DNA from: a virus
Direction: 5' to 3' (one strand)
DNA length: 23,706 nt
Virus record (IMG/VR): IMGVR_UViG_3300030103_001568
Coordinates: 1-23,706 of that record
This document shows, piece after piece, positions 1 through 18,135 of the stretch. The number at the start of each line of letters is the position of its first letter. Position 1 is the first letter of the stretch. A program made the translations under genes and the position numbers. A model generated the notes under the pieces. That model had not been told where the DNA came from. It was given only the letters and a program-made list of their open reading frames with translations, and made no database searches.

Positions 1-993
1 CTTAATATAACCAAGAATAGACCTGATGCACAATCAATAGTGCAAGGTGTAACAGACAGAAGTTTGGAAGGCAATGCACTTCCTTTTTATAATAGACAGG
101 ACCCTGCTCTTATAGAGGAGTGGTTTGACGATTTCAATTATTTCAACACAAGTAAATACTTAGTAACTAAAGTAGAAGCTGGTTCAGGATCAGCTACACA
201 AACAGTTTCACGTTCAATACTTACAATACAAAATGACGATGCAGCTAATGACTACACTTGTATACAACCACAATTAGGCGACAATACAAATATTGCAAAC
301 TTTATAAATCCTGTTGCTGAAAAAGGTCAAGATATATTTTTTAGATGTAGATTAAGAATTGCTGATGTATCTGCTACAAAATTTCAAATAGGTCTTATGG
401 GTAAAAACCCAGGAAGTTTTCCTACATTTGGTACTTTCAATAATCATATAATGTTTACATGGAAACAATTTGGTAGCCCTATTTTATATTGGCAGTATGG
501 ATTAGCTGCTACAACAAACATTTGGAATCCATTTCCAGGTAGATTATTAAACCCAATAGAAGGTAATAAAATATCAATAGCAGATGGATATACAAAGGTA
601 TATCCTACTGATGGTTCTGGTTCAAGATTCCAAGCTTTTGCAGGAAGTAGTGAAGGTACTATTGCAGCATCAGGACTTCCTATTGCTGACCCAGAATATC
701 CAATCATTAGAGACAATGAGTTTTTTAGACTTACTTTAATATATAAAGCAGGTAATCATAAAGCACCAAATGGTCAAGACTCTAATGGAAGATTAGAATT
801 TTGGTTAGGTGCAGATGGTAGAGATGACCAATGTTTACAAGTTGTCTATCCAGATTTATCTGACATAACAAGTATGACATCAATAACACCTTCTATTTGC
901 ATAGGTAACTCAGGTGGTACTTCATCAGCTGAAATAGATTATATGCATGCTGGACAATTTAGAAGTATAAATAGAGTAGGTAAAGGAGAATAA
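1..993 (+). CDS. Beta-rich phage structural protein, paralog 1 (5' partial)
   Basis: The frame is open to the left edge, so the true start lies before the window; 330 residues are visible. The GTG at 40 is only the first start codon in the window, not a likely start. After about 45 residues comes a motif (EEWFDDF) shared with the next three large genes, then KVEAGSGSA and NDDAAND, which are nearly identical in the 1135 gene. The C-terminus ends in a strand with EIDYM, again shared. The pattern of alternating short strands suggests a concanavalin/LamG-like jelly roll. Position before the joining and tail genes suggests a virion surface, decoration or fibre protein. I do not recognise a named family; the structural role is inferred from context. 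Confidence 0.72.
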   Translation, partial: LNITKNRPDAQSIVQGVTDRSLEGNALPFYNRQDPALIEEWFDDFNYFNTSKYLVTKVEAGSGSATQTVSRSILTIQNDDAANDYTCIQPQLGDNTNIANFINPVAEKGQDIFFRCRLRIADVSATKFQIGLMGKNPGSFPTFGTFNNHIMFTWKQFGSPILYWQYGLAATTNIWNPFPGRLLNPIEGNKISIADGYTKVYPTDGSGSRFQAFAGSSEGTIAASGLPIADPEYPIIRDNEFFRLTLIYKAGNHKAPNGQDSNGRLEFWLGADGRDDQCLQVVYPDLSDITSMTSITPSICIGNSGGTSSAEIDYMHAGQFRSINRVGKGE

Positions 994-994
994 T

Positions 995-1135
995 ATGGCA
1001 CATATAGTAAAAGAATATAAACGAGGAGAAAAAGTTTTAATTGGTTCTTATGATAAAGAATCAGATGCTATGGATAAAGTTAATGAAATACTTGATGCTG
1101 GTGCAGAAGGTGTTTATGTGGAGGTAACTGAATAA
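995..1135 (+). CDS. Small interleaved protein a (46 aa)
   Basis: Short ORF with an ATG 1 nt after the previous stop and a Shine-Dalgarno-like AGGAG at 984-988. Its TAA overlaps the next ATG by one base (TAATG). Predicted layout is strand (HIVKEY), turn, strand (VLIGSY), helix (SDAMDKVNEIL), strand (VYVEVTE). The same strand-strand-helix-strand order is seen in the other three tiny genes of this block, so they may be distant paralogs. Function unknown; coupling to the large paralogs suggests a virion or chaperone role for them. Support is the tight packing and the shared layout. Confidence 0.6.
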   Translation: MAHIVKEYKRGEKVLIGSYDKESDAMDKVNEILDAGAEGVYVEVTE

Positions 1136-1959
1136 TGGCAAATTTTACTAGGACCCTTAAAAAAACAGGTAATGTTAATTTTAAAAATGGTATAAATGAT
1201 TCTGCTTTAGGAGATGCTGTAGGTCAATTATCAACTAAACCTGTACCATATAGAAGGCAAGTATTCTGGCAAGACTTTTTAGGATATGACCTTGCAACTT
1301 TTAGAGTGCATAAAGTAGAGGCTGGATCAGGTTCAGCAGCTTTAGTGCCAGGAGATTCTGTAGGTGGTACTTTAAAAATTACTAATGATGATGCAGCCAA
1401 TGATTTAGTTAATATTCAATTAGGTAATACTGCTGCAAGTAATCCTACTTTCCAATGGAACTACGATAGAGACTTTTGGATTGATATTAGAATGAAAGCT
1501 TCTGATGTTTCAAGTGCAAAACTTGATGGATTCTTTGGAGTATGTCAATCAGAAAACAACATAGCTTTATTTACACATTACAATAGAATAGGTTTTCATT
1601 TTGACAATCTTTTAGGAAGTCATGTTTTTCCTTGCTGTGGTAATGTAGATGAAGCCAAAACTTCTTTAGGAGATGGTACTGCATTTTTTAGTGGAGTAGG
1701 AAATAACGAATATTTTAATTTAAGTTTTGCATATAGTTCTAAAACAAAAAATTTAAAATGGTTTATCAATGATGTTTGTGCTTATAGCATGAATGCTAAC
1801 GATTTAGACTTTAATGCTTTTGAACCAGCAAAAAATTATATACCACCTAATAATTCTATTATGGCTCCAACTATACAATTTAAAAATGGTACAGCAGGTG
1901 CTAACGTGCTTGAAGTAGATTATATGTTAGTCGGTGTAGAAACAGAGGACAGGTCATAA
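1135..1959 (+). CDS. Beta-rich phage structural protein, paralog 2 (274 aa)
   Basis: Complete relative of the partial gene at the left edge. The N-terminus carries NVNFKNGI, a short motif also near the start of the next two large proteins, and may be a shared attachment or docking peptide. The body has FWQDF (about residue 44), then KVEAGSGSA and NDDAAND, then FWIDIRMKASDVSSAKL, matching FFRCRLRIADVSATKF in paralog 1. It ends with VLEVDYMLVG. This strand pattern fits a jelly-roll/LamG-like fold. No catalytic motif is visible. Likely a virion surface or decoration protein; that assignment is inferred. One-base overlaps link it to the small genes on both sides. Confidence 0.75.
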   Translation: MANFTRTLKKTGNVNFKNGINDSALGDAVGQLSTKPVPYRRQVFWQDFLGYDLATFRVHKVEAGSGSAALVPGDSVGGTLKITNDDAANDLVNIQLGNTAASNPTFQWNYDRDFWIDIRMKASDVSSAKLDGFFGVCQSENNIALFTHYNRIGFHFDNLLGSHVFPCCGNVDEAKTSLGDGTAFFSGVGNNEYFNLSFAYSSKTKNLKWFINDVCAYSMNANDLDFNAFEPAKNYIPPNNSIMAPTIQFKNGTAGANVLEVDYMLVGVETEDRS

Positions 1960-2084
1960 TGAAAATAATAGCAATAATAAACGGAAAACAAGTAGCTGAA
2001 TTTAGTTCAGTAGCAGATTGCAAAGCTTGGATGGCTAGTCAATCAGATAATAAAGTTACACTTCTAGTGGAGGGTTCAGAATAA
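1959..2084 (+). CDS. Small interleaved protein b (41 aa)
   Basis: Starts in a TAATG overlap with the paralog 2 stop and ends in another TAATG overlap with the next small gene. Predicted strand (KIIAII), NGK turn, strand (VAEF), helix beginning SVADCKAWM, and strand (VTLLVEG). This is the layout seen in small proteins a and d. No recognised family. The exact stop/start coupling on both sides argues that it is translated although it is very short. Confidence 0.55.
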   Translation: MKIIAIINGKQVAEFSSVADCKAWMASQSDNKVTLLVEGSE

Positions 2085-2242
2085 TGGCACTTAAATATGT
2101 AATGATAGCAACAAGTGGAGATGACGAAGTTGTTGAAAAAGAATTTCCTAAAACAAATGCAGGAGAGTTAGCCTGGGGTGAAGCAGTAAAAGAATACTGG
2201 GAAAACAATTATGCAGTAGAAATAAGATTGGAGGATAGATAA
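2084..2242 (+). CDS. Small interleaved protein c (52 aa)
   Basis: Begins in a one-base overlap with small protein b and ends in a one-base overlap with paralog 3. Layout is strand (KYVMIAT), DD turn, strand (VVEKEF), helix (ELAWGEAVKEYWENN), strand (AVEIRLED). It is the longest of the four tiny proteins but keeps the same order. A purine-rich GGAGG (2230-2234) in its last codons probably serves as ribosome binding site for the next gene. Function unknown. Confidence 0.57.
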   Translation: MALKYVMIATSGDDEVVEKEFPKTNAGELAWGEAVKEYWENNYAVEIRLEDR

Positions 2243-3216
2243 TGTCTACTAATGGTAAAAAAGGTACAAACTTTAAAAACGGATTAAGTAATCTACCAAG
2301 TGGTCACATACTTGATGGATTAAATACAGGTGCATTAGAGTCAGATTATATTATTTGGCACGATGATTTCAGCACTTATGATGCAAACCAATGGGCATTA
2401 ACTAAAACAGAAGCAGGTTCAGCAGCAGCCTCAGTAGAGTTAGCCGATAAAAAAGGCGGAGAGTTAATTCTTAAAACAGACAATGCTAATGGAGATATAA
2501 CTAAATTAGCTTGGAAAGGTGCAACAGGTGCAGCAGCACCAGTAAATCCATTTCAATTTAGTAAAGACAAATACTTTCATATGCAAGCTAGATTCAAAAT
2601 ATCTGGTACAGGAGTTAGTTTTACAAACACCCATGTAGCTTTAGGTTTAATGGAAGGTAGTAAAATAGCTGGAATATCAGGAACAGCAAACTCATGGGCT
2701 ACAAATGCATCATCTTATATAGCAGAAATTCCACCATTTTTTAATGGTATTTTTGGAGGTGCTTTTGTATTTTATATGGTTGCAGAAACAGGTTCAGGTA
2801 TTAGACCAGTAGGACCAGGTGGACAAACACCACTAAGTTTAGAGGTAGATAGATATATAACTGTTGCTTTAACAAGTAGATATCCACAAAGGTCAGCAAG
2901 CAATAGATTGCCAGGACCATCAAAAGGTCAAAATGGAGTTCTTTGGAGAGACACATATGGTGGTGGATTCAAAGGTTCTGATATTGGTGTAAAAGGACCA
3001 CTAATGAATTGTTACATGGTAGATGAAGTTGGAGACGTAGGTCCTGCAAAAAAATGGGTCAACTGTGTAAATGATGGAAATACTGACGGATCACTACCAG
3101 CTTCACAAACACCAGCACAACCAATGACACCTTTTATTGGGATAGCAAATCGTTCTAATACAGGCAATCAATGCATACTAACAGTAGATAGTATGACAAT
3201 AATTCAGGAGAGATAA
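2242..3216 (+). CDS. Beta-rich phage structural protein, paralog 3 (324 aa)
   Basis: More divergent member of the paralog set. It keeps the N-terminal GTNFKNGL motif (residues 8-15), WHDDF near residue 39, KTEAGS, and a C-terminal TVDSMTI strand in place of the EVDYM strand. The middle contains FHMQARFKISGTG, equivalent to FWIDIRMKASD in paralog 2. A long Gly/Pro-rich insertion around residues 185-285 is absent from paralog 2. Probably the same jelly-roll scaffold with different loops, which would fit a surface-exposed decoration or adhesin. It overlaps paralog 4 by one base with no small gene between. Role inferred from position and similarity only. Confidence 0.72.
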   Translation: MSTNGKKGTNFKNGLSNLPSGHILDGLNTGALESDYIIWHDDFSTYDANQWALTKTEAGSAAASVELADKKGGELILKTDNANGDITKLAWKGATGAAAPVNPFQFSKDKYFHMQARFKISGTGVSFTNTHVALGLMEGSKIAGISGTANSWATNASSYIAEIPPFFNGIFGGAFVFYMVAETGSGIRPVGPGGQTPLSLEVDRYITVALTSRYPQRSASNRLPGPSKGQNGVLWRDTYGGGFKGSDIGVKGPLMNCYMVDEVGDVGPAKKWVNCVNDGNTDGSLPASQTPAQPMTPFIGIANRSNTGNQCILTVDSMTIIQER

Positions 3217-4142
3217 TGGCAACTAACTTTAAACAAGGTTTTACAAATATAGGAGATGGCAACGAGCATCCTATTGGAGATATTATTAAGATTCCTTTCC
3301 CAGGAAAATGTCAAGAATGGTTTGATGATTTTCATTCATACGATACAAGATTTTATGAAAAAGGAGATATTGGAGGTTCTAATACTGCTGCACAAGTAGT
3401 AGGTGAAGCTGGTGGAGTTATTAGACTTACAACTGATGCTGGTGGTAGTAGTGCTACTTGTTTAGCATGGAAAGGTGGCGATGCTACAAAAGTAGGAAAC
3501 TGGAACACCATAGTAAATGGCGAAACAAATTTTTGTTTTAAATATAGATTTAAAATGAACAATGATGCGGCAGGTACAGGAAATAAAAATATTGAAGGTT
3601 ATCCAGTTATAGGTTTAATACTGCCAACACAAGCAGCTAATTCATTTCCATTCTTAGCATTTACTGGACAATTTACTGGAGTTGCACACGAAAAAAACTC
3701 TGCATTAGTATATGGTAATACAGCTTTTGCAGGTAACTTAGGTAACACAAGAGGTATATATACACCAGCAATGAGTGATGTTGGTGATGGTAATTATCAT
3801 ACACTTTCTATTATTTATAGAGATGCTAAACCTGGAACTGGTAAAGAAGGACGAAACATAAGTAATCCAGGAGGAACAGCTAAAGAAATGGTATGGATGT
3901 ATGATAATCAAATTATTCAAACAATAGATAGCATAAGTGGAAAAATAGGATATGACGTTGGTTGGTCTGGTATATCAGAAGCTAATCCAGCTATAGGAAC
4001 ACCAGGAGCAGTATTAAATGTTGGTGAGAATAATGGTTTCTCTCCTTGGTTTGGAATTGCTAACGCTACTGGTGCTATCTCACAATCAATGGATGTTGAC
4101 TATGTTTATCTAGCAGCAGAAAAACCAAAAGGGAGTTACTAA
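3216..4142 (+). CDS. Beta-rich phage structural protein, paralog 4 (308 aa)
   Basis: Starts with ATNFKQGF, the same N-terminal motif as paralogs 2 and 3, followed by EWFDDFHSYD, which matches paralog 1 (EEWFDDFNYF). A GG-rich strand pair, CFKYRFKMN, and a final MDVDYVYLA strand align with the other copies. LAWKGG near residue 85 matches LAWKGA in paralog 3, so these two are closest to each other. No enzyme motif is visible. Likely a virion surface protein of jelly-roll type. The following small gene starts in its stop codon. Confidence 0.72.
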   Translation: MATNFKQGFTNIGDGNEHPIGDIIKIPFPGKCQEWFDDFHSYDTRFYEKGDIGGSNTAAQVVGEAGGVIRLTTDAGGSSATCLAWKGGDATKVGNWNTIVNGETNFCFKYRFKMNNDAAGTGNKNIEGYPVIGLILPTQAANSFPFLAFTGQFTGVAHEKNSALVYGNTAFAGNLGNTRGIYTPAMSDVGDGNYHTLSIIYRDAKPGTGKEGRNISNPGGTAKEMVWMYDNQIIQTIDSISGKIGYDVGWSGISEANPAIGTPGAVLNVGENNGFSPWFGIANATGAISQSMDVDYVYLAAEKPKGSY

Positions 4143-4279
4143 TGGCTAAAGTAAAAATAATTGTAAAAGAAGGTACTAGAGTTAGACAAGAACATGAAGC
4201 AGCTAATAAAGATGCTGCTGTTGCGTGGATTAAAGAAAACGTAAAAAATGAATCTTTTACAGCAGAGGAGATTGAATAA
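4142..4279 (+). CDS. Small interleaved protein d (45 aa)
   Basis: Flanked by TAATG overlaps on both sides. Layout is strand (KVKIIVKEG), short strand (RVRQEHE), helix (DAAVAWIKENV), then an acidic tail (TAEEIE). It resembles small proteins a-c in order and size, with AWIKEN similar to AWMASQ in b. The GAGGAG at 4265-4270 in its end is a good ribosome binding site for the next gene. Function unknown. Confidence 0.57.
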   Translation: MAKVKIIVKEGTRVRQEHEAANKDAAVAWIKENVKNESFTAEEIE

Positions 4280-4683
4280 TGGCTGATGCAGTAACAACAC
4301 AAATAATTCAAGATGGACCAAGAAATGCTGTAATTAAATGTACAAACATTAGTGATGGCACAGGTGAAGCAGCAGTTGATAAAGTTATAGTAGGTAATTT
4401 AAGTAAGCTAGGTAATGGTCAACCATGCACACAAGTAGCTTTGCAAAGAGTTCAATACTATATGAATGGTATGGATGTAACTTTAAACTTTTCTGTATCA
4501 TCAGGTGCAGCAGGGTTTATAGCTAAACTAAATGAAAATGATTTAGGTGATATGGACTTTAGAGACTATAGCGGTATACCTAATAATGCAGGTGCTAACA
4601 AAACAGGCAATATTAGTTTTACTACCACAGGTGCTGGAGCTGGAGATACATACACAGTTATATTAACCTTAACAAAAGCATAG
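4279..4683 (+). CDS. Small phage structural protein (134 aa)
   Basis: The N-terminus (MADAVTTQIIQDGPRNAVIK) is of a type I recognise from many marine phages as an unnamed virion protein located near capsid genes; that recognition is from memory. The sequence alternates strands and Gly-rich turns, with no membrane segment or signal peptide, and ends in a strand (TYTVILTLTKA). It could be a capsid decoration or head-stabilising protein. It starts in the stop codon of the preceding tiny gene and is followed by an 8-nt gap with a strong ribosome binding site. Confidence 0.65.
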   Translation: MADAVTTQIIQDGPRNAVIKCTNISDGTGEAAVDKVIVGNLSKLGNGQPCTQVALQRVQYYMNGMDVTLNFSVSSGAAGFIAKLNENDLGDMDFRDYSGIPNNAGANKTGNISFTTTGAGAGDTYTVILTLTKA

Positions 4684-8404: not shown

Positions 8405-11314
8405 ATGGCAACTTTTGTAAACAATTTAAGATTAAAAGAAATAAATACTGGTGACGAGTCAGGTACCTGGGGTGCTTCGACTAACACTAACCTTGAGCTA
8501 ATTGGTTCAGCTCTTGGTTTTGGTACTAAAAACATGGGAGCAGATGCTAATGTAACTTTTACTATGCCTGACTTTTCAGCTGATGGCGTAAGATCAATGC
8601 ATCTTAAAATTACATCAGTAGCTTTAACTGCTACAAGAACAGTAACACTAGGACCAAACACAGTTTCAAAGTTTTGGATTGTAGAAAATGCTACAACAGG
8701 CGGACAAACTATAACACTAAAACAAGGAAGCGGAAGCACAGTCAGCGTACCTAATGGCGGTAGCGTTGCAATATACACAGAAGGAACAGGTGCTGGAGCT
8801 GGCGTTAAAGATTCACTAGCTAATATAAATATTACAGGCACAGGTGTATTTGCAAACTTAACAGCTGCTTCTGCTGATATTAATGGCGGTACTATAGATG
8901 GTGCAGCATTAGGTTCAGGTTCTGCAATCACAGCCCTTACAGTAAATGGTAATGCATCTATAGATGGTGGAACAATTAAACTAGACGGAAATCATCCAGT
9001 AGGAACAAACAATGTTTTCTTAGGTAATGATGCTGGTGCTGCTGCAACTGGTTCAAATCTTTTTAATGTTGCTATAGGAGCAGATGCATATAAATCAGCA
9101 ACATCAGGTTCAGGCTCTGTAGCAGTCGGAGCTGGTGCATTACAAAATGCTACAACTGTTGGCAATACAGCAATAGGAGCAAGTGCAGCACAATCTAATC
9201 TTACTGGTGCAGGAATTGTTGCAGTAGGTTTACAAGCATTAAAAGAAAATACTACTGGTACTTTTCTTACTGCTCTTGGTTTTCATGCTTTACAAGAAAA
9301 TACTTTAGGTAATTACAATGTAGCTGTTGGCTATCATGCACTAGAAGGTAACACGACAGGAAGCAGAAATATAGCTATAGGAACATCCGTTTACAACACT
9401 TCACAAACAGCATCCGATAATATTGCTATGGGTTATAAAGCTTTACCAGAAGTATTAACTGGTAGAACTGATGTAAACTTTGGCGACCTTAATGAAACAC
9501 TATCAGCTTCAAATGGTTCATCTACTATTACTGTTACTCTTGGAGTTACAGGTTTAACTAATGAAATGTTAAATTTAAAAGTTGGAGATGGCTTTAAAAT
9601 TATTGGTAACTTTCAAGGCAAAATTGGTAAACCTACTCTTGGTGGAAACATAAATGCCGAAGTTCTGTGTGGTTCAAATACAACATTTAGTAATAAAGTT
9701 TATACTATTACTTCTACAACTGGCGATACAGGAAATCAATTTACATTTACCGCAACAGATAATGCTGGTAATCCAGTATTAGCAAATGCTTCTGATACTG
9801 GCGATGGTACAGATGGTGGTAGTTACAGCATACAATCAAGAGAATATAACAATATAGCCATAGGTAACTGGGCTATGAATAAAGCTACAAGTGCTGCTTT
9901 TAATATAGGAATTGGTGCAAGAGCATTAAGGCAATTAACTTCTGGAACTTGGAACATAGCCATAGGTAATGCAGCAGGAGATGGTATTACTGATGATAAT
10001 AGAAACACTTGTATAGGTCCTAAGTCAGGAGAAAAATTACAATCAAGTTTTAATACATTTATAGGTGCATTTGCAGGTTCTAACCATGAAGCTACTTTAG
10101 GTCAAAACCTTGCTATCGGTGCAGGACCTTTTGGTGGAGATACAGGATATCTTAATATAGTTATGGGTGTTAGTGCCATGCTATCTTCAAATGATTTTTC
10201 ATCTAACATTGCTATAGGTAATGGTGCTTGTTATAACCTTGGAATATCATCAACAGGAACAGGTCAATTTGAATCTAAAAATGTTTGTATAGGTCAATCT
10301 GCTGGTTCTTTTCTTTTGACTACAGATGCTATAGAAAATGTAGCTATAGGACATCATGCACTTAAAGGTGCTAATTCATTAGATTATATACAAACCCCTT
10401 TTGGTCCAGGATTCAATGTAAAAAATTGTACAGTTGTAGGTTTTGAAGCTATGTCAGAATCAGCAGGCAGTAACGGAGATCAGGCTACTGCTATAGGAAC
10501 AAGGGCACTTAAAGTTAATAATGGTACATTTAATACAGCTGTAGGACATGATGCTGGATTAAGTAATACTACAGGGCAGTTTAATACGCTTATTGGTGCT
10601 TTAGCAGGAAAACTTTTAGATGCTACAACAGCTAATACTGCAATAGGTTATGCAGCCCTAGCAGGTTCAAATGGCGGTAGTGGAGAAAATACAGCTGTTG
10701 GTGCTTTGTGTTCTTCTAACTTAACAACAGGTCAATATAACGTAGCTAATGGTTCATTTGCACTTTCTGCTAATTTAACAGGAAACAATAACGTATCTAT
10801 AGGACATAGGTCGCTTGATGCACACTTAGGTAGTAATTGCGTTGCTGTGGGTAAAGATGCAGGTACAAATCAAACTACATCAGATAATACTATATCTATT
10901 GGTTTTAATGCCCAGCCTTCAACCATAACAGTAGATAATGAAATTACGTTAGGAGATGCAAACATAACAGCTTTGAGATGTAATGTTACAACCATATCAT
11001 CATTATCAGATAAAAGAGATAAGTCTAATATAGAAGATTTACCAGTAGGTTTAGATTTTATTAATGCACTTAATCCTGTTAAGTTTGATTGGTCAAGAAG
11101 AGATGGTTCTATGGAAGGAGCTAAAGATATAGGATTTATAGCTCAAGACTTAGATAGCGTACAAGATGAATACAATATTGCAGACTATGCAAATTTAGTA
11201 TTAAAAGAGAATCCTGATAAGTTAGAAGCTTCATATGGTAAATTAGTTCCTGTATTAGTAAAAGCTGTACAAGAACTTTCATCAGAAGTTGCAAGGCTTA
11301 AGGAGTTATTATAA
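8405..11314 (+). CDS. Tail fibre with YadA-like stalk and S74 chaperone (969 aa)
   Basis: Residues 1-130 form the N-terminal virion-attachment region (LKEINTGDESGTWGASTN) that I recognise from many marine phage fibres. From about 200 to 855 there are many copies of a (N)xAIGxxAL unit (NVAVGYHALEGN, NIAIGNWAMN, NTAIGYAAL), like the head repeats of trimeric autotransporter adhesins, which form a left-handed parallel beta roll. Residues 356-478 break the repeats with a different beta domain. The C-terminus (about 864-969) is an intramolecular chaperone of the peptidase S74 type: SDKRDKSNIEDL with the presumed catalytic S868 and a Lys nearby. It trimerises the fibre and is then usually cleaved off. 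The domain ends in a coiled coil (VPVLVKAVQELSSEVARLKE). Receptor-binding role is standard for such proteins. Confidence 0.85.
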   Translation: MATFVNNLRLKEINTGDESGTWGASTNTNLELIGSALGFGTKNMGADANVTFTMPDFSADGVRSMHLKITSVALTATRTVTLGPNTVSKFWIVENATTGGQTITLKQGSGSTVSVPNGGSVAIYTEGTGAGAGVKDSLANINITGTGVFANLTAASADINGGTIDGAALGSGSAITALTVNGNASIDGGTIKLDGNHPVGTNNVFLGNDAGAAATGSNLFNVAIGADAYKSATSGSGSVAVGAGALQNATTVGNTAIGASAAQSNLTGAGIVAVGLQALKENTTGTFLTALGFHALQENTLGNYNVAVGYHALEGNTTGSRNIAIGTSVYNTSQTASDNIAMGYKALPEVLTGRTDVNFGDLNETLSASNGSSTITVTLGVTGLTNEMLNLKVGDGFKIIGNFQGKIGKPTLGGNINAEVLCGSNTTFSNKVYTITSTTGDTGNQFTFTATDNAGNPVLANASDTGDGTDGGSYSIQSREYNNIAIGNWAMNKATSAAFNIGIGARALRQLTSGTWNIAIGNAAGDGITDDNRNTCIGPKSGEKLQSSFNTFIGAFAGSNHEATLGQNLAIGAGPFGGDTGYLNIVMGVSAMLSSNDFSSNIAIGNGACYNLGISSTGTGQFESKNVCIGQSAGSFLLTTDAIENVAIGHHALKGANSLDYIQTPFGPGFNVKNCTVVGFEAMSESAGSNGDQATAIGTRALKVNNGTFNTAVGHDAGLSNTTGQFNTLIGALAGKLLDATTANTAIGYAALAGSNGGSGENTAVGALCSSNLTTGQYNVANGSFALSANLTGNNNVSIGHRSLDAHLGSNCVAVGKDAGTNQTTSDNTISIGFNAQPSTITVDNEITLGDANITALRCNVTTISSLSDKRDKSNIEDLPVGLDFINALNPVKFDWSRRDGSMEGAKDIGFIAQDLDSVQDEYNIADYANLVLKENPDKLEASYGKLVPVLVKAVQELSSEVARLKELL

Positions 11315-13069: not shown

Positions 13070-13419
13070 TGGATTCAGTAGTTACTTTAATTAATGAAGT
13101 TGGCTTCCCAATAGCAGCGGCTATAGGTCTCGGTTTATTTATTTGGAAACTAATCAATAAAATTATTGATGGTATGGAAACAAAAGTAGATGTGCTTGAT
13201 GAAAAAGTATCAGCACAAATAGCTCAAATAGAAGAGCGTTTAGGACAAAAATTAGATTCACAACATGGTATTTTAGTAGCTCTTATAGATAGAGTACGTT
13301 CTGTAGACAATGAGATAATTAGACAGGATACTTTGCTAAAGACTATACTTGGAGTACCACAACTTATGAATACAGACAGAATAGCAAAGGCGGATAGAGA
13401 TGACCAAAGAAAAGACTAA
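13069..13419 (+). CDS. Membrane-anchored coiled-coil protein (116 aa)
   Basis: N-terminal hydrophobic span at about residues 12-31 (GFPIAAAIGLGLFIWKLINK), followed by a long charged coiled coil (VDVLDEKVSAQIAQIEERLG and on to about residue 95) and a basic tail. The topology recalls small holin-like or YvrJ-type phage membrane proteins, but the family is not certain. It overlaps the start of csgF by 20 nt, so it may be part of the same expression unit. A holin role would fit its place upstream of the curli and lysis genes; that is inference. Confidence 0.65.
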   Translation: MDSVVTLINEVGFPIAAAIGLGLFIWKLINKIIDGMETKVDVLDEKVSAQIAQIEERLGQKLDSQHGILVALIDRVRSVDNEIIRQDTLLKTILGVPQLMNTDRIAKADRDDQRKD

Positions 13420-13912
13420 AAAACAAATAGAAGCAGAAGAAAGAGAAAAAGATTTAATTATTAAAGGTGTAGCTATTATTGGAGTTATACTTTTTCTAGG
13501 AGTTTTTGTACAAAATCTTAGTGCAGATGAAATGGTGCATAAGTTTAAGAATCCTTCTTTTAGCGGTATCAATACATCTAGTCACTATCTAACCATAGAA
13601 AACCAGGAGTTTAATAGAAAGAAAGCTTTGAAAGAAGAAATCAAAGCACTAAAAGAAGCTGCTGAAAGAGAGAAGAACAATACTACATTAGCAAGATTTA
13701 TTAGAAACTTAGAGTCAAGAATATATGCACAATTAAGTTCGCAACTTGTTAATAATTTATTTGGAGAAAACCCACAAACCAGCGGAGAGTTTACTCTACT
13801 AGATACAACAGTATCTTATGAAATCATAGACGGAATAATATATTTGAAAATAACGGATGCGAATGGAAATGTTACCGAGATTAGTTTGCCTGTTGGCGAT
13901 TTTTACTTCTAG
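13400..13912 (+). CDS. csgF: Curli assembly factor CsgF-like protein (170 aa)
   Basis: CsgF sits at the outer membrane and inserts its N-terminus into the CsgG channel in Escherichia coli. Here the signal h-region is residues 21-40, with likely cleavage near LSA-DEM. The mature start MVHKFKNPSFSG (45-56) aligns with the E. coli MTFQFRNPNFGG plug segment. The C-terminal part (helix ESRIYAQLSSQLVNNLF, strands VSYEIIDGIIYLKITDANG and TEISLPVG) matches CsgF's last domain. Odd points: a charged 20-residue extension before the hydrophobic segment, which might make it an uncleaved anchor, and a Lys/Glu-rich helix at 73-92. It overlaps the upstream gene by 20 nt and csgG by 56 nt. Recognised by eye from the motif and its pairing with CsgG. 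Confidence 0.82.
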   Translation: MTKEKTKKQIEAEEREKDLIIKGVAIIGVILFLGVFVQNLSADEMVHKFKNPSFSGINTSSHYLTIENQEFNRKKALKEEIKALKEAAEREKNNTTLARFIRNLESRIYAQLSSQLVNNLFGENPQTSGEFTLLDTTVSYEIIDGIIYLKITDANGNVTEISLPVGDFYF

Positions 13913-14669
13913 TTGTGCATACGTTCCAGTCAATGATGGAATTAGTTGGAGACAAGGATTAGAGCAAGCTGAGATAGAATCCATCAAGTTTTCTAAATTG
14001 CATGAGGTACAAGCACCTTTGCAAAAAACTGTAGTAGCTGTATACCCTACAAGCTTCACAGACCAAACAGGACAAAGAAAAAGTAACAGTTCATTTGCTT
14101 TGTTTAGTACAGCTATAACACAAGCACCACATACATTGCTTATACGAGCATTAAAGAACGCATCTAAAGGTGAATTTTTTATAGTAGCTGAACGAGTAGG
14201 ACTAGATAACCTTACAAAAGAAAGACAATTAATAAGGTCAACAAGAGAGCAGTTTGAAGATAAAGATGGCAAACGACCTCTACCACCATTACTCTTTGCA
14301 GGAATTTTATTAGAAGGCGGAGTAATAGCATACGATACAAACTTAAGAACAGGTGGCGGAGGAGCAAGATACTTAGGTTTAGGTGCCAATCATCAATACA
14401 GGGAAGATAAAGTAACTGTATCTCTTAGGATGGTTTCTGTAACGACAGGGGAAGTTTTGATAGAGGTATTAACCTCTAAGACTATCTTTAGTTATGCAGA
14501 AAGCCAGGATGCATTCAGGTTCATTGAAGCAGGTACAGAGCTTGTAGAAATTGAAGTTGGATACACAACAAACGAATCAGGAACTATTGCTTTAGAAAAA
14601 GCAGTTGAAGCAGCAGTTCTTGAAATAATAAATATAGGTTATGAAAGGAGTTATTGGAAACATGAATAA
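13857..14669 (+). CDS. csgG: Curli secretion channel CsgG-like lipoprotein (270 aa)
   Basis: CsgG forms a nonameric outer-membrane pore that exports curli subunits. Signal peptide with lipobox FTSSC, lipid Cys at 20. Strong family matches through the whole length: DQTGQ (69-73), FSTAITQAP (83-91), SGGVGARYFGIGA of E. coli against TGGGGARYLGLGA (165-177), TTGEVL (196-201), TSKTIFSY (206-213), FRFIE (220-224), EVGYTTNE (233-240), and a C-terminal YERSYW. Size is normal. A start at the ATG of 13869 would give a 16-residue signal like E. coli; 13857 is the longest option. The first 56 nt lie inside csgF. No CsgE homolog is nearby. The call is very firm; transport substrate is presumably the next gene's product. 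Confidence 0.92.
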   Translation: MRMEMLPRLVCLLAIFTSSCAYVPVNDGISWRQGLEQAEIESIKFSKLHEVQAPLQKTVVAVYPTSFTDQTGQRKSNSSFALFSTAITQAPHTLLIRALKNASKGEFFIVAERVGLDNLTKERQLIRSTREQFEDKDGKRPLPPLLFAGILLEGGVIAYDTNLRTGGGGARYLGLGANHQYREDKVTVSLRMVSVTTGEVLIEVLTSKTIFSYAESQDAFRFIEAGTELVEIEVGYTTNESGTIALEKAVEAAVLEIINIGYERSYWKHE

Positions 14670-15369
14670 ATATTTAATTACGATTTTACTTAGTATGGGT
14701 CTGGTATATGCAGACGACAACGAAATATCAGTAGACCAATCAGGTGCTACTGCAAACATTGATTTAGAGCAATTAGGTTCTGGCAATATCATTGGAGGTG
14801 CAGATGCCGCAGCAGGCGATATGACACCACTTGACCTTGATGGAGCTAATATGACTTTAGATATAAATCAAATTGGTTCATCTAACCAATTCTTAGGAGA
14901 TATCTTTGCTGATACTTTTACAGGTTTTTTTGAATTTGATGGAGACAGCAACATATTTAATATTACAGTTGACCCTACAGATACTCATGGAGCAGATAGT
15001 GGTAACTTTAATGTAAACATTACAGGTAATTCTAATGAGTTTGATTTAGATGTAGCTACCGCAGATATGGCTACTACATTAGATTTAGATTGGATTATTA
15101 ATGGTTCAAGCAATGATTTAACATTTACCATAGATTATGATTTAGCTACTAACTATCTTGATATTGATGGTAGTGATAACACAATCACATTTGATGCAGA
15201 TGGATATGCAGGTGGTTATTTCTATTTAGACCATACAGGTTCTAATAGAACATTTAACATACAACAACAGAGTACACTTGATAATGATTGGCTTAAGATT
15301 ATTTCTAATGGTTCTAATGGTACAGTTTGTGTCATTCAGAACGATGGCGGAACCAGCACAAGTTGCTGA
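14662..15369 (+). CDS. Curlin-like secreted repeat protein (235 aa)
   Basis: ATG at 14662 is chosen over 14641 because it gives a clean signal peptide (MNKYLITILLSMGLVYA) and has AGGAG at 14646-14650. The mature protein holds about eight strand-turn-strand repeats with a G-x-x-N or G-S-N turn: near 32-46, 64-80, 88-104, 114-131, 140-158, 165-180, 186-202 and 210-226. The first two keep curlin spacing (QLGSGN, QIGSSN); later ones lose the Gln. It is Asp-rich and very acidic, with two Cys (223, 235) that could pair. It overlaps the csgG stop by 8 nt. Likely the CsgG cargo and a functional amyloid-like fibre subunit; fibre formation is inferred. Confidence 0.75.
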   Translation: MNKYLITILLSMGLVYADDNEISVDQSGATANIDLEQLGSGNIIGGADAAAGDMTPLDLDGANMTLDINQIGSSNQFLGDIFADTFTGFFEFDGDSNIFNITVDPTDTHGADSGNFNVNITGNSNEFDLDVATADMATTLDLDWIINGSSNDLTFTIDYDLATNYLDIDGSDNTITFDADGYAGGYFYLDHTGSNRTFNIQQQSTLDNDWLKIISNGSNGTVCVIQNDGGTSTSC

Positions 15370-16399
15370 TATAGGGAATATATCAGAGCTAAACGGATAC
15401 GCTAAAGTATTAAGAGATAAAGATTATGATGCACAACTAAAGTTTGGCATTCAATCTTTTGATGATGTAAGAACTGCTAGCGGTAGACTAGGTATAGAGT
15501 TTATTGATAGTAGTATAGTAAGACTTACAGAACACTCTAAACTGGTTATAGATGAATACGTTTATGACCCTAACCCAAGCAAATCAAAGATGGCACTTAA
15601 GTTTGCAAGTGGCACAATAAGATTTGTAAGCGGTAGTCTTAATAGAATAGACAAAAAAAATATATCACTTAAAACACCAACTGCTGACATAGCAATCAGA
15701 GGAACAGACTTTACAGTTACTGTTGATGAATTAGGCAGAAGTTTAATAATACTTCTACCAGGATTAGATGGAGATTCAAGTGGTGAAATAATAGTTACTA
15801 CAGCTTTAGGCTCAGTAACTCTAAGCAAACCATATCAAGCAACAACAACTAATGTTTATGAAAGTGCACCAAGCACTCCTGTAATATTAGATTTAACTCT
15901 AGATGTTATTGATAACATGTTGATAGTTACTCCGCCAAAAGAAGAAGCTATATTAACAACAGAAGAAATCATACAAACAAACGATATACTAGATTTTAAT
16001 GACCTTGATATAGATTATCTTGCAGAAGATTTTTTAGATAATGAGGCAGACTTAGAGTTTACAGAACTAGATATAAATTATCTTGATGTAAACTTTCTTG
16101 AAGATTTATTAGATATTATAGATGCTCTTGCAAGTAAAGATGAAGTAGATAGATTAGCTGTAACAGCAAGCGGTATTGATATTAGAGGTACTGACATAGG
16201 TCAGGATACAACTACACAGATTGTTACTTTAATACAAGGCTCTGAAGTAAAACTTATTCGTAATGTAGCAAACTATGCAGAAGTTATTATTGATGGAGAT
16301 GATAGTTATACAGTTATCTTTATACAAGATGGTGTATCCAGAGTAGTAACTATAAATGGCGGATCAGATTCTGTCATAAGGATACAGCAAGGTTCGTGA
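15284..16399 (+). CDS. FecR-domain periplasmic protein with duplicated motif (371 aa)
   Basis: ATG at 15284 gives a signal peptide (h-region LFLMVLMVQFVSF, likely cut after TMA at 22). A TTG at 15278 or an ATG at 15344 (no signal) are alternatives. Residues 55-185 form a FecR domain: IEFIDSSIVRLTEHSKLVID, FASGTIRFVSG and the hallmark TPTADIAIRGTDF (131-143). Residues 238-279 hold two acidic 21-residue repeats (FNDLDIDYL, FTELDINYL). Residues 296-371 contain a second IRGTD and more strands. There is no membrane span or TonB-type partner, so iron regulation is unlikely; pairing with a CHASE2 cyclase is a known bacterial arrangement. The first 86 nt lie inside the curlin-like gene. It overlaps the cyclase by 4 nt. 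Confidence 0.82.
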   Translation: MIGLRLFLMVLMVQFVSFRTMAEPAQVADIGNISELNGYAKVLRDKDYDAQLKFGIQSFDDVRTASGRLGIEFIDSSIVRLTEHSKLVIDEYVYDPNPSKSKMALKFASGTIRFVSGSLNRIDKKNISLKTPTADIAIRGTDFTVTVDELGRSLIILLPGLDGDSSGEIIVTTALGSVTLSKPYQATTTNVYESAPSTPVILDLTLDVIDNMLIVTPPKEEAILTTEEIIQTNDILDFNDLDIDYLAEDFLDNEADLEFTELDINYLDVNFLEDLLDIIDALASKDEVDRLAVTASGIDIRGTDIGQDTTTQIVTLIQGSEVKLIRNVANYAEVIIDGDDSYTVIFIQDGVSRVVTINGGSDSVIRIQQGS

Positions 16400-18135
16400 A
16401 AAGATATTTATTATTTATTGCAATATTTATATTGCCTTTGCTATTTCAAGTAAAACCACTTGAGATACTGAAGTTAAAAACTTTTGATGCATTTGTAGAA
16501 ACACCAGAAGAAAGCGGTAATTTTGTAATATTAAATATCACAGATAAAGATGTGCAAGCCAGAGGAGGATATCCTTTTCCAAGAAGGGACTTAGCACAGA
16601 TTCATGTAGACCTCTTAAATGCAGGAGCTACAGGAGTTGGTTGGGTAATACTATTCCCAGAGCCAGACAGATTCCAGGGAGATGATGCTTTTGCAGAAGC
16701 ACTATCATATTCCCATAGTGTGATAGCAATGCCAGAAATAGATAATGGCATCTATCCAAAAACAGAGGGTACAGTAATTATTGGACCTGACGTACAAGGT
16801 ATAAAACTAACAGGTGTATTAGAAAATATAGATATATTAAAAGCTAATGCATATCAAGGCATAGTATCTGCACCAATAGATGTAGATGGTCTTGTTAGAC
16901 AATTACCATTACTGATGCAAACACCTGATGGGTGGGTAGCATCATTTGGTACACAGGTTTTAAAAGCCCTGATACAAGCGGACACTTATATCCTAAAGGC
17001 AGAGAGCGATGGAATTAAGGAGATAGCTGTACAGGGCTTGCCCTCTGTTAAAGTAGATAGTTACGGAAGAAAATGGATTAGTTGGGTAGACACACCACAA
17101 ACTACATTAGAAGAAATGAATGTAGCTGGCAGATTTGTTTTCGTAGGTGTTACTGCTAAAGGCATAATGCCTCAATTATCTACACCAAACAATTTAATGT
17201 ATCCACATATGATACAAGCAGCTTTGGCTGAATCTATGTTAATAGAGAACAGTCCACAGATTCCAGACTCTCATTTAGTTTATGAAGTATTCATATTAAT
17301 CCTTATAACAATAGTATTGTTTATACTCATCAACTTCTTAGGCTTTAATGGGAGTTTGGTTTTTACAGTCTTAGTATTTACTGGAGCTAGTGCTGGAGGA
17401 ATTTGGCTTATAAAAAATAATATACTTATTGATGTTACTTATAGTTTAATATCAGCAGTATTTATATCTTTACAAGAATATTATTTTAGATTCAAAGAAC
17501 AGTACAAACTTAGACAACAAATTAAAAAACAATTTGAACATTATCTTGATCCAAGACAAGTTAAAAGATTACAGGATAATCCAGAACTTTTAAAATTAGC
17601 AGGAGAAAAAAAATATGCTACCTTCTTATTTACTGATGTTAGGGGATTCACGTCCCTTAGTGAAACTCTTGAACCAGAAGAAGTCACAGAGTTAATGAAC
17701 AAAGCTCTTACTATACAGGCAAATGCAGTACAAGCTAATGGAGGTATGGTAGATAAATATATTGGAGATGCAATGATGGCTATCTTTAATGCACCATTAG
17801 ACTTAGACAACCACGAAGATGCTGCTATAAAAACAGCGATTCAAATAAAACACGACATAGAAGCAGCAGACTTAGGAATTGAAATTGGTATTGGATTATC
17901 GTCTGGACCAGCTGTGATAGGAAATATGGGAAGTGCAACACGCTTTGATTATACAGCTATAGGTGATGCAGTAAACCTCGGAGCACGCATGGAATCAAGC
18001 TGTAAAGAGCTTGGTGTCAATTTAGTGATTGCGGATAGCACTATGAAAGCATCTACATATGAATTAAAATCATTAGGAGACATAAAAGTAAAAGGCAAAA
18101 GCAAGCCAATTAAGGTATACACATGGGAAAACTAA
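16396..18135 (+). CDS. CHASE2-domain class III adenylate cyclase (579 aa)
   Basis: GTG start in a 4-nt overlap with the FecR gene. N-terminal span at about 4-20, then a periplasmic CHASE2 sensor (roughly 25-285; motifs DAFVETPEESGNFVILNITD, GGYPFPRRDLAQIH, GRFVFVGVTA). Three membrane spans follow (about 294-315, 320-339, 343-364), then a linker (FEHYLDPRQVKRL) and the catalytic domain. All catalytic residues are there: metal ligands D414 (FTDVRGFTSL) and D458 (GDAMMA), substrate-selecting K454 and T520, transition-state N527 and R531. K/T at the specificity pair predicts ATP to cAMP. It should sit in the inner membrane and respond to a periplasmic input, perhaps the FecR protein. Its partner effector (such as CRP) is not in the window. 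Confidence 0.92.
   Translation: MKRYLLFIAIFILPLLFQVKPLEILKLKTFDAFVETPEESGNFVILNITDKDVQARGGYPFPRRDLAQIHVDLLNAGATGVGWVILFPEPDRFQGDDAFAEALSYSHSVIAMPEIDNGIYPKTEGTVIIGPDVQGIKLTGVLENIDILKANAYQGIVSAPIDVDGLVRQLPLLMQTPDGWVASFGTQVLKALIQADTYILKAESDGIKEIAVQGLPSVKVDSYGRKWISWVDTPQTTLEEMNVAGRFVFVGVTAKGIMPQLSTPNNLMYPHMIQAALAESMLIENSPQIPDSHLVYEVFILILITIVLFILINFLGFNGSLVFTVLVFTGASAGGIWLIKNNILIDVTYSLISAVFISLQEYYFRFKEQYKLRQQIKKQFEHYLDPRQVKRLQDNPELLKLAGEKKYATFLFTDVRGFTSLSETLEPEEVTELMNKALTIQANAVQANGGMVDKYIGDAMMAIFNAPLDLDNHEDAAIKTAIQIKHDIEAADLGIEIGIGLSSGPAVIGNMGSATRFDYTAIGDAVNLGARMESSCKELGVNLVIADSTMKASTYELKSLGDIKVKGKSKPIKVYTWEN

Follow-up and report, generated by a model that had tools for sequence, protein, structure and literature searches.

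Four paralogous genes downstream of the major capsid protein gene

The DNA analyzed here, which we call the window, is the first 23,706 of the 59,325 bases in a virus record (IMG/VR IMGVR_UViG_3300030103_001568) and opens with an array of four genes, JR1 to JR4, whose products are candidate capsid decoration proteins. JR1 (1..993, + strand, 5' part missing; 342 amino acids (aa) when complete) lies directly after the gene for the major capsid protein (MCP) and is followed by JR2 (1135..1959, +, 274 aa), JR3 (2242..3216, +, 324 aa) and JR4 (3216..4142, +, 308 aa). JR1 was assigned by a profile match, JR3 by homology and a profile match, and JR2 and JR4 by homology and by models that predict lectin-fold bodies. 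Base 1 of the window falls within JR1, and the 5' part of the gene lies at the record end: the first 100 bases of the record recur as its last 100 with one mismatch. The record is therefore circularly closed, with the missing start of JR1 at its far end. The start ATG is at position 17691 of the record-end sequence (L014), and the independent contig L001 yields the same complete gene.

The MCP, a homologue of major head proteins (phrog_371, E = 8e-20), is encoded directly upstream of JR1 at the record's own end and in contigs L001, L002, L003, L185 and L186. In L001 and L002 the order is a 357-aa (L001) or 352-aa (L002) protein, proteins of 166 and 195 aa, the MCP, JR1, a small open reading frame (ORF) s1, and JR2; in L002 and the window, JR2 is followed by small ORFs s2 and s3, JR3, JR4, small ORF s4, a 134-aa protein and a 100/101-aa protein, with SU10-type tail adaptors further downstream. 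Stop and start codons of the array genes mostly overlap, and a purine-rich stretch resembling a ribosome-binding site precedes each gene.

JR1 to JR4 are homologous genes arranged in tandem on one strand. Pairwise phmmer searches (8175 ORFs) connect JR1 with JR2 (E = 2.5e-8), JR2 with JR3 (2.4e-10), JR3 with JR4 (6.3e-7), JR1 with JR4 (1.9e-6) and JR1 with JR3 (6e-4); the direct match between JR2 and JR4 is weak (7e-5) and extends only to an 80-aa 5' fragment of JR4, and a joint profile recovers all four. This profile, A3, holds no conserved stretch, and single-protein queries were used in its place for collection searches. None of the four proteins matches a Pfam family at E of 1, the JR2 protein matches nothing at 1e-5 in 50,697 phage records, and a sequence search of the PDB with the JR proteins returned nothing.

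An initial annotation, made from the sequence alone, had already recognized the four paralogues, and the searches above bear this out, as they do the LAWKG motif that it reported in both JR3 and JR4. Its other shared motifs hold in part. KVEAGSGSA and NDDAAND are found in JR1 and JR2, while JR3 reads KTEAGSAAA and TDNANGD and JR4 reads GDIGGSNTA and TDAGGSS. Likewise, the (W/E)-x-DDF motif described for all four is WQDF in JR2, and the terminal (D)VDYM takes the forms IDYM, VDYM, VDSM and VDYV in JR1 to JR4, respectively. JR1 had been paired with JR2 and JR3 with JR4; LAWKG does link the latter two, but in the best tree JR1 groups with JR4; neither pairing is supported, and approximately unbiased tests reject neither (p = 0.20 for 1+2, p = 0.45 for 3+4).

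Predicted fold of the JR bodies

AlphaFold2 models built from family alignments are nearly all-beta for both paralogues modelled, JR2 (mean pLDDT 63.7, pTM 0.69) and JR4 (mean pLDDT 58.1, pTM 0.69). Legume lectins are the best PDB matches of both models in Foldseek (E = 3.7e-8 for JR2, 7.3e-7 for JR4), and legume L-type lectins fill the top rows in VIA-align, where JR2 residues 39-272 match soybean agglutinin (Z 16.1, 196 aligned residues, 3.0 Å) and JR4 residues 30-306 match peanut lectin (Z 13.8, 196 aligned, 3.8 Å); the VIA-align lists are filled by this one fold and by themselves do not exclude others. These matches place the "jelly-roll" of the initial annotation with the ConA-like lectin/glucanase kind. 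According to the models, then, the JR2 and JR4 bodies have the L-type-lectin (ConA-like) fold, and JR1 and JR3 are homologous to them by sequence. The structural likeness that had been expected among the paralogues is thus seen in the two of four that were modelled. In the modest-confidence JR2 model, residues 1-39 have pLDDT values under 50 and lie outside the folded body. The motif ExDx(x)E, which we take to be the catalytic motif of GH16 glycoside hydrolases, occurs neither in JR1-4 nor in the JR protein of contig L041.

The slot after the major capsid protein in related phages

Which genes occupy the position of JR1 in other phages? Among named phages, relatives of both portal and MCP are found in the Pelagibacter phages HTVC023P and HTVC027P, the Roseobacter phages CRP-901 and CRP-902, and cyanobacterial phages of the Pag-Yong1 type. 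We collected loci around MCP relatives, keeping the best 80 of at least 600 matches. Seven had too little sequence beyond the MCP, which left 73. Because the best matches were kept, this sample is biased toward close MCPs and may include near-duplicates, and L002 and L003, which also carry the MCP, fall outside the 80. In 67 of the 73, by a looser regular expression, the gene just after that of the MCP starts with a [TS]TFxG(P/A)-type peptide (a first, stricter expression found 58, including one false match in L072). The six loci without it are L015, which belongs to the window lineage, L072, where the ORF is cut at its 5' end, L077, and L075, L084 and L092, which share the variant MGFA[ST]HLGPWLL. 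The peptide or a variant also begins the slot protein of CRP-902, HTVC023P, DSL-LC04 and Pag-Yong1. In L071, L077 and L084 a protein that by eye resembles GIY-YIG homing endonucleases is encoded directly after the MCP, and in L071 and L084 it precedes the decoration gene.

Behind the peptide, the slot proteins differ widely. The 61 unique complete proteins are 63-319 aa long, the slot accommodating bodies of as little as about 60 aa, and sort into 12 body groups (blastp at 1e-3 over at least 30 columns from residue 25 on, a definition that may keep some remote homologues apart). Over the first 11 residues, by contrast, mean identity is 65%. Moreover, different body groups are found in 8 of 29 locus pairs whose MCPs are at least 95% identical and in 57 of 91 pairs at 90-95%.

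Slot genes of relatives are annotated as cement or minor capsid proteins, and the body group with CRP-902 gp56 and the product of a DSL-LC04 gene annotated as a cement protein yields a profile (A4) that matches PDB entry 7eel "Cement (decoration) proteins" (chain 7eel_H, E = 1.8e-4) and entry 7dn2 "Cement protein gp15" (E = 0.001). The former, whose PDB entry names the molecule only, we take to be the Pam1 cement protein. An elongated N-terminal loop of the Pam1 protein is described as contacting the E-loop of its MCP (PMC9698820). This contact and the A4 matches together indicate that the slot is a cement or decoration slot and, by analogy, make the conserved N-terminal peptide a plausible shell-binding element.

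Copy number and divergence of the JR genes

A single JR protein occupies the slot in contigs L041 and L069, and a single lectin-like body stands there in dozens of marine contigs. When the L041 protein was used as query, the best 80 of 112 loci were kept; each has one JR gene, which starts 87-157 bases past the MCP stop in all 75 of these loci that contain the MCP. The single-copy bodies (L101-L180) group by N-terminus, M[AG][KN][TS]HFSGP or MA[VT]HFTGP, and they form a ready set for structural work. The Manatee Spring phage ct7ZZ929 encodes two JR proteins in tandem directly after an MCP that is only 27.5% identical. The array is present in part or whole in eight contigs besides the window (L001, L002, L003, L004, L009, L010, L185 and L186); all four genes are found in L002, L003 and L186, JR4 being cut by the contig end in the last, and none of the eight contradicts the gene order. 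The mapping of copy number that had been suggested thus gives one, two or four JR genes, and the four-gene array is rarer than the single copy. In the tree, 14 array proteins lie on one side of a branch with support of 100/99.8, opposite 13 single-copy and ct7ZZ929 proteins, and a branch likewise separates each paralogue from the rest (with a program warning about long branches). The best reading of these sequences is that a lineage-specific duplication enlarged the slot to four genes of the predicted lectin fold.

Within the array lineage it is the JR proteins that vary and the capsid that stays nearly constant. Array contigs share 98-99% identity in the MCP, and the MCP is 98% identical between the window and L186, as compared with 68% for JR1, 42% for JR2 and 37% for JR3. 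Similarly, dN/dS is 0.27-0.57 for JR pairs and 0.04-0.09 for the MCP, and dS is 0.15-0.63 for the JR genes (the near-identical L002-L010 pair left out) and 0.05-0.14 for the MCP. The higher dS of the JR genes suggests that, besides changing fast, they have been exchanged as diverged copies. With L010 left out, being 99% identical to L002, the closest contig pair varies by gene: L001/L002 for JR1 (92%), L002/L003 for JR2 (83%), window/L004 and L002/L003 for JR3 (88% each) and window/L002 for JR4 (90%).

The N-terminal peptide of the array proteins

NFK[NQ]G occurs three times in the 36,293 ORF residues of the phage's own genome, each time at the N-terminus of a JR protein. A motif search places NFKNG at residues 15-19 of JR2 (1177..1191, +), NFKNG at residues 10-14 of JR3 (2269..2283, +) and NFKQG at residues 4-8 of JR4 (3225..3239, +), just as the initial annotation had it for these three; a looser pattern is found near the N-terminus of one other ORF of the genome only, of 38 aa on the minus strand. 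The broader claim, that the motif is common to all four and forms one docking peptide, does not hold: L001 and the record end both give MASKVSSVNELPLNITKNRPDAQSIVQG as the actual N-terminus of JR1, with SIVQG at the aligned place. NFK[NQ]G is kept in the JR2-4 orthologues of L002 and L003, and L186 has VNFTKG, VTFKNG and TNFKNG. In JR2 and JR4 the motif precedes the body ranges matched by VIA-align. Between the window and L186, fractional identity of N-terminal part and body is 0.87 and 0.65 for JR1, 0.51 and 0.40 for JR2, and, over the first 90 residues only, 0.58 and 0.42 for JR4.

NFKxG of the array proteins is positioned where single-copy JR relatives carry HF[ST]GP[VI]. We compared these peptides with a position-weight matrix made from 42 TTFxGP-type peptides, one insertion allowed, and with shuffles of each sequence; shuffles reach the score of the L041 protein in 0.0% and that of the L069 protein in 1.4% of cases. 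The link between NFKxG and TTFxGP is positional only.

Proposed function of the JR proteins

We propose that JR1-JR4 are paralogous capsid decoration proteins, encoded in the cement slot of a marine relative of the HTVC023P-type pelagiphages. A short flexible N-terminal segment of each protein would bind the major capsid shell, and the ConA-like body would be exposed to solvent on the exterior of the head. The slot after the MCP holds one decoration gene with interchangeable bodies in relatives, and duplication would have raised this number to four in the window lineage. On a near-constant capsid, the heads on display would diverge and pass from strain to strain. They would most likely adhere to cell, mucus or particle polysaccharides, keeping the virion near its hosts. 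Exposed-domain decoration proteins such as Hoc and pb10 are thought, in the accounts given of them, to keep particles near hosts or in mucus (PMC7602432, PMC5292684). That the JR proteins belong to the capsid shell in some capacity is very probable; that they are decoration proteins with exchangeable lectin-fold heads, likely adhesive, is a less secure reading that we nonetheless favor. The surface-display array of exchangeable decoration domains suggested by the initial annotation accordingly stands as regards the cement slot, the lectin-fold models and the body swaps, and falls as regards a peptide common to all four.

Several observations weigh against this proposal. Confidence in the JR2 and JR4 models is modest. 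NFKxG is absent from JR1, the N-terminus of JR3 is no better conserved than its body (0.38 and 0.37 between the window and L186), and the matrix scores do not show NFKxG to be the TTFxGP peptide, as 29-32% of shuffles reach those of JR1-4. No sugar-binding site and no enzyme motif was found in JR1-4. Finally, neither the A3 profile nor the L069 protein matches any solved cement protein in the PDB by sequence; since only slot-mates with other bodies do so, the proposal is that the JR proteins act like cement proteins and occupy their place, not that they belong to the Pam1 family.

Could the JR proteins serve as capsid cement only, perhaps occupying distinct symmetry sites or forming hetero-oligomers, their lectin fold being a stable beta-sandwich that binds no sugar? 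The A4 matches, which mark the slot as a cement slot, are consistent with this, as is the failure to find a sugar-binding site or enzyme motif in JR1-4, and the cement proteins of BPP-1 and GP4 are reported to be beta-sandwiches with a stabilizing role (PMC3863775, PMC9698820). However, phages whose MCPs are almost the same can have wholly different bodies, bodies of about 60 aa fill the same slot, and divergence to 37-42% on a 98% identical MCP exceeds what pure cementing needs, so that we regard a cement-only role as rather unlikely. Improbable is a second alternative, that the JR proteins are neck or tail (receptor-binding) proteins merely encoded after the MCP: phage tail proteins often have ConA-like folds, several of the structural neighbors being such proteins, and adaptor genes lie downstream of the array, but tail-fibre-like genes are located elsewhere (8405-11314 and from 21192), and the JR genes take the position of annotated cement or minor capsid genes of relatives, whose profile finds solved cement proteins. 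Least probable is that they function as products of the infected cell, such as secreted or surface lectins, rather than as virion components; the same phage does have a curli secretion cassette, yet the JR genes hold a fixed place in the head operon and, judged by eye only, no signal peptide is apparent at their N-termini.

An adhesive role of JR1-JR4 is the best fit to the predicted lectin fold, to strong divergence on a near-fixed shell and to the exchange of bodies. We suggest, more tentatively, that the slot is a plug-in display system in which a near-constant capsid and a short N-terminal tag accept at least 12 interchangeable body types, and in which, in the window lineage, one particle would show four different lectin-fold proteins together, a combinatorial coat of glycan-binding heads that reassort between strains. 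If so, abundant ocean phages would diversify not only the tail but also the exterior of the head, and the tag would offer a ready-made element for capsid display.

Neighboring genes

The four small ORFs interleaved with the JR genes, which the initial annotation did not contain, encode 41-52 aa: s1 (995..1135, +, 46 aa) is conserved in L002, L003 and L186, s2 (1959..2084, +, 41 aa) and s3 (2084..2242, +, 52 aa) are conserved as well, and s4 (4142..4279, +, 45 aa) is conserved in L002, L003, L004, L009 and L010. Each has its own ribosome-binding-site-like sequence, and their order is kept in the other array contigs. The four resemble one another in length and general look, but a profile built to treat s1-s4 as a single family finds no useful match outside array loci (best E 5.7), and identities to s1 are 20-39%. 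In relatives, too, the conserved 134-aa protein encoded next (4279..4683, +) comes after the decoration slot (gp55 in CRP-902), and it has homologues in 33 of 100 scanned sequences (overlapping loci counted); it belongs to no PHROG family, and its Pfam match is below threshold.

At 13400-18135 the window carries a curli-type cassette with CsgF (E = 2.9e-21), CsgG (6.6e-49), FecR (1.3e-10), a CHASE2-cyclase and a repeat protein of curlin-like appearance, judged by eye, that has no Pfam match. A similar set is described in nine HTVC023P-type podophage genomes (PMC9599517), which supports a pelagiphage-like identity of the window phage.

Comparison with known systems

Decoration proteins as such are already known, as are beta-sandwich cement proteins in BPP-1 and GP4; what is new here is that the body has a predicted lectin fold, that one, two or four copies occur, and that unrelated bodies replace one another behind a single peptide. 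A 2020 review of decoration proteins describes five solved folds (beta-tulip, beta-tadpole, OB, Ig-like and knotted helical), and a word search of the review text did not return "lectin" (PMC7602432). Within the open-access literature, most subscription journals being outside its scope, we found no report of lectin-fold capsid decoration in this phage group.

The named relatives HTVC023P, HTVC027P, CRP-901/902 and Pag-Yong1 have a similar head-module order and homologous MCP and portal, but no JR body. The SO2946-like C-terminal domain (PF22237) is weakly matched by residues 73-230 of the L069 protein (E = 0.0016), and two BFVD structural neighbors of the JR2 model carry the SO2946-like name; however, the L069 match reaches 18.9 bits as compared with a curated cut-off of 27, and JR1-JR4 do not match this domain.

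The cement proteins of Pam1, GP4 and BPP-1 resemble the proposed JR arrangement in that a beta-sandwich sits on an HK97-type shell, with termini that are described as touching the MCP (PMC9698820, PMC3863775), in BPP-1 both the N- and the C-terminus (PMC3863775), and the Pam1 protein is detectably homologous to a slot-mate family of the JR array. They differ in that their bodies are small (140 aa in BPP-1, 157 aa in GP4) and one cement protein is described for each phage, whereas the JR bodies are larger, have a predicted ConA-like fold and come as four paralogues. Similarly, T5 pb10 and T4 Hoc combine a capsid-binding end with an exposed body thought, according to the published descriptions, to touch carbohydrates (PMC5292684, PMC7602432). 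As described, pb10 differs from the JR proteins in its alpha-helical N-terminal domain and Ig-like body, and both pb10 and Hoc are encoded by single genes.

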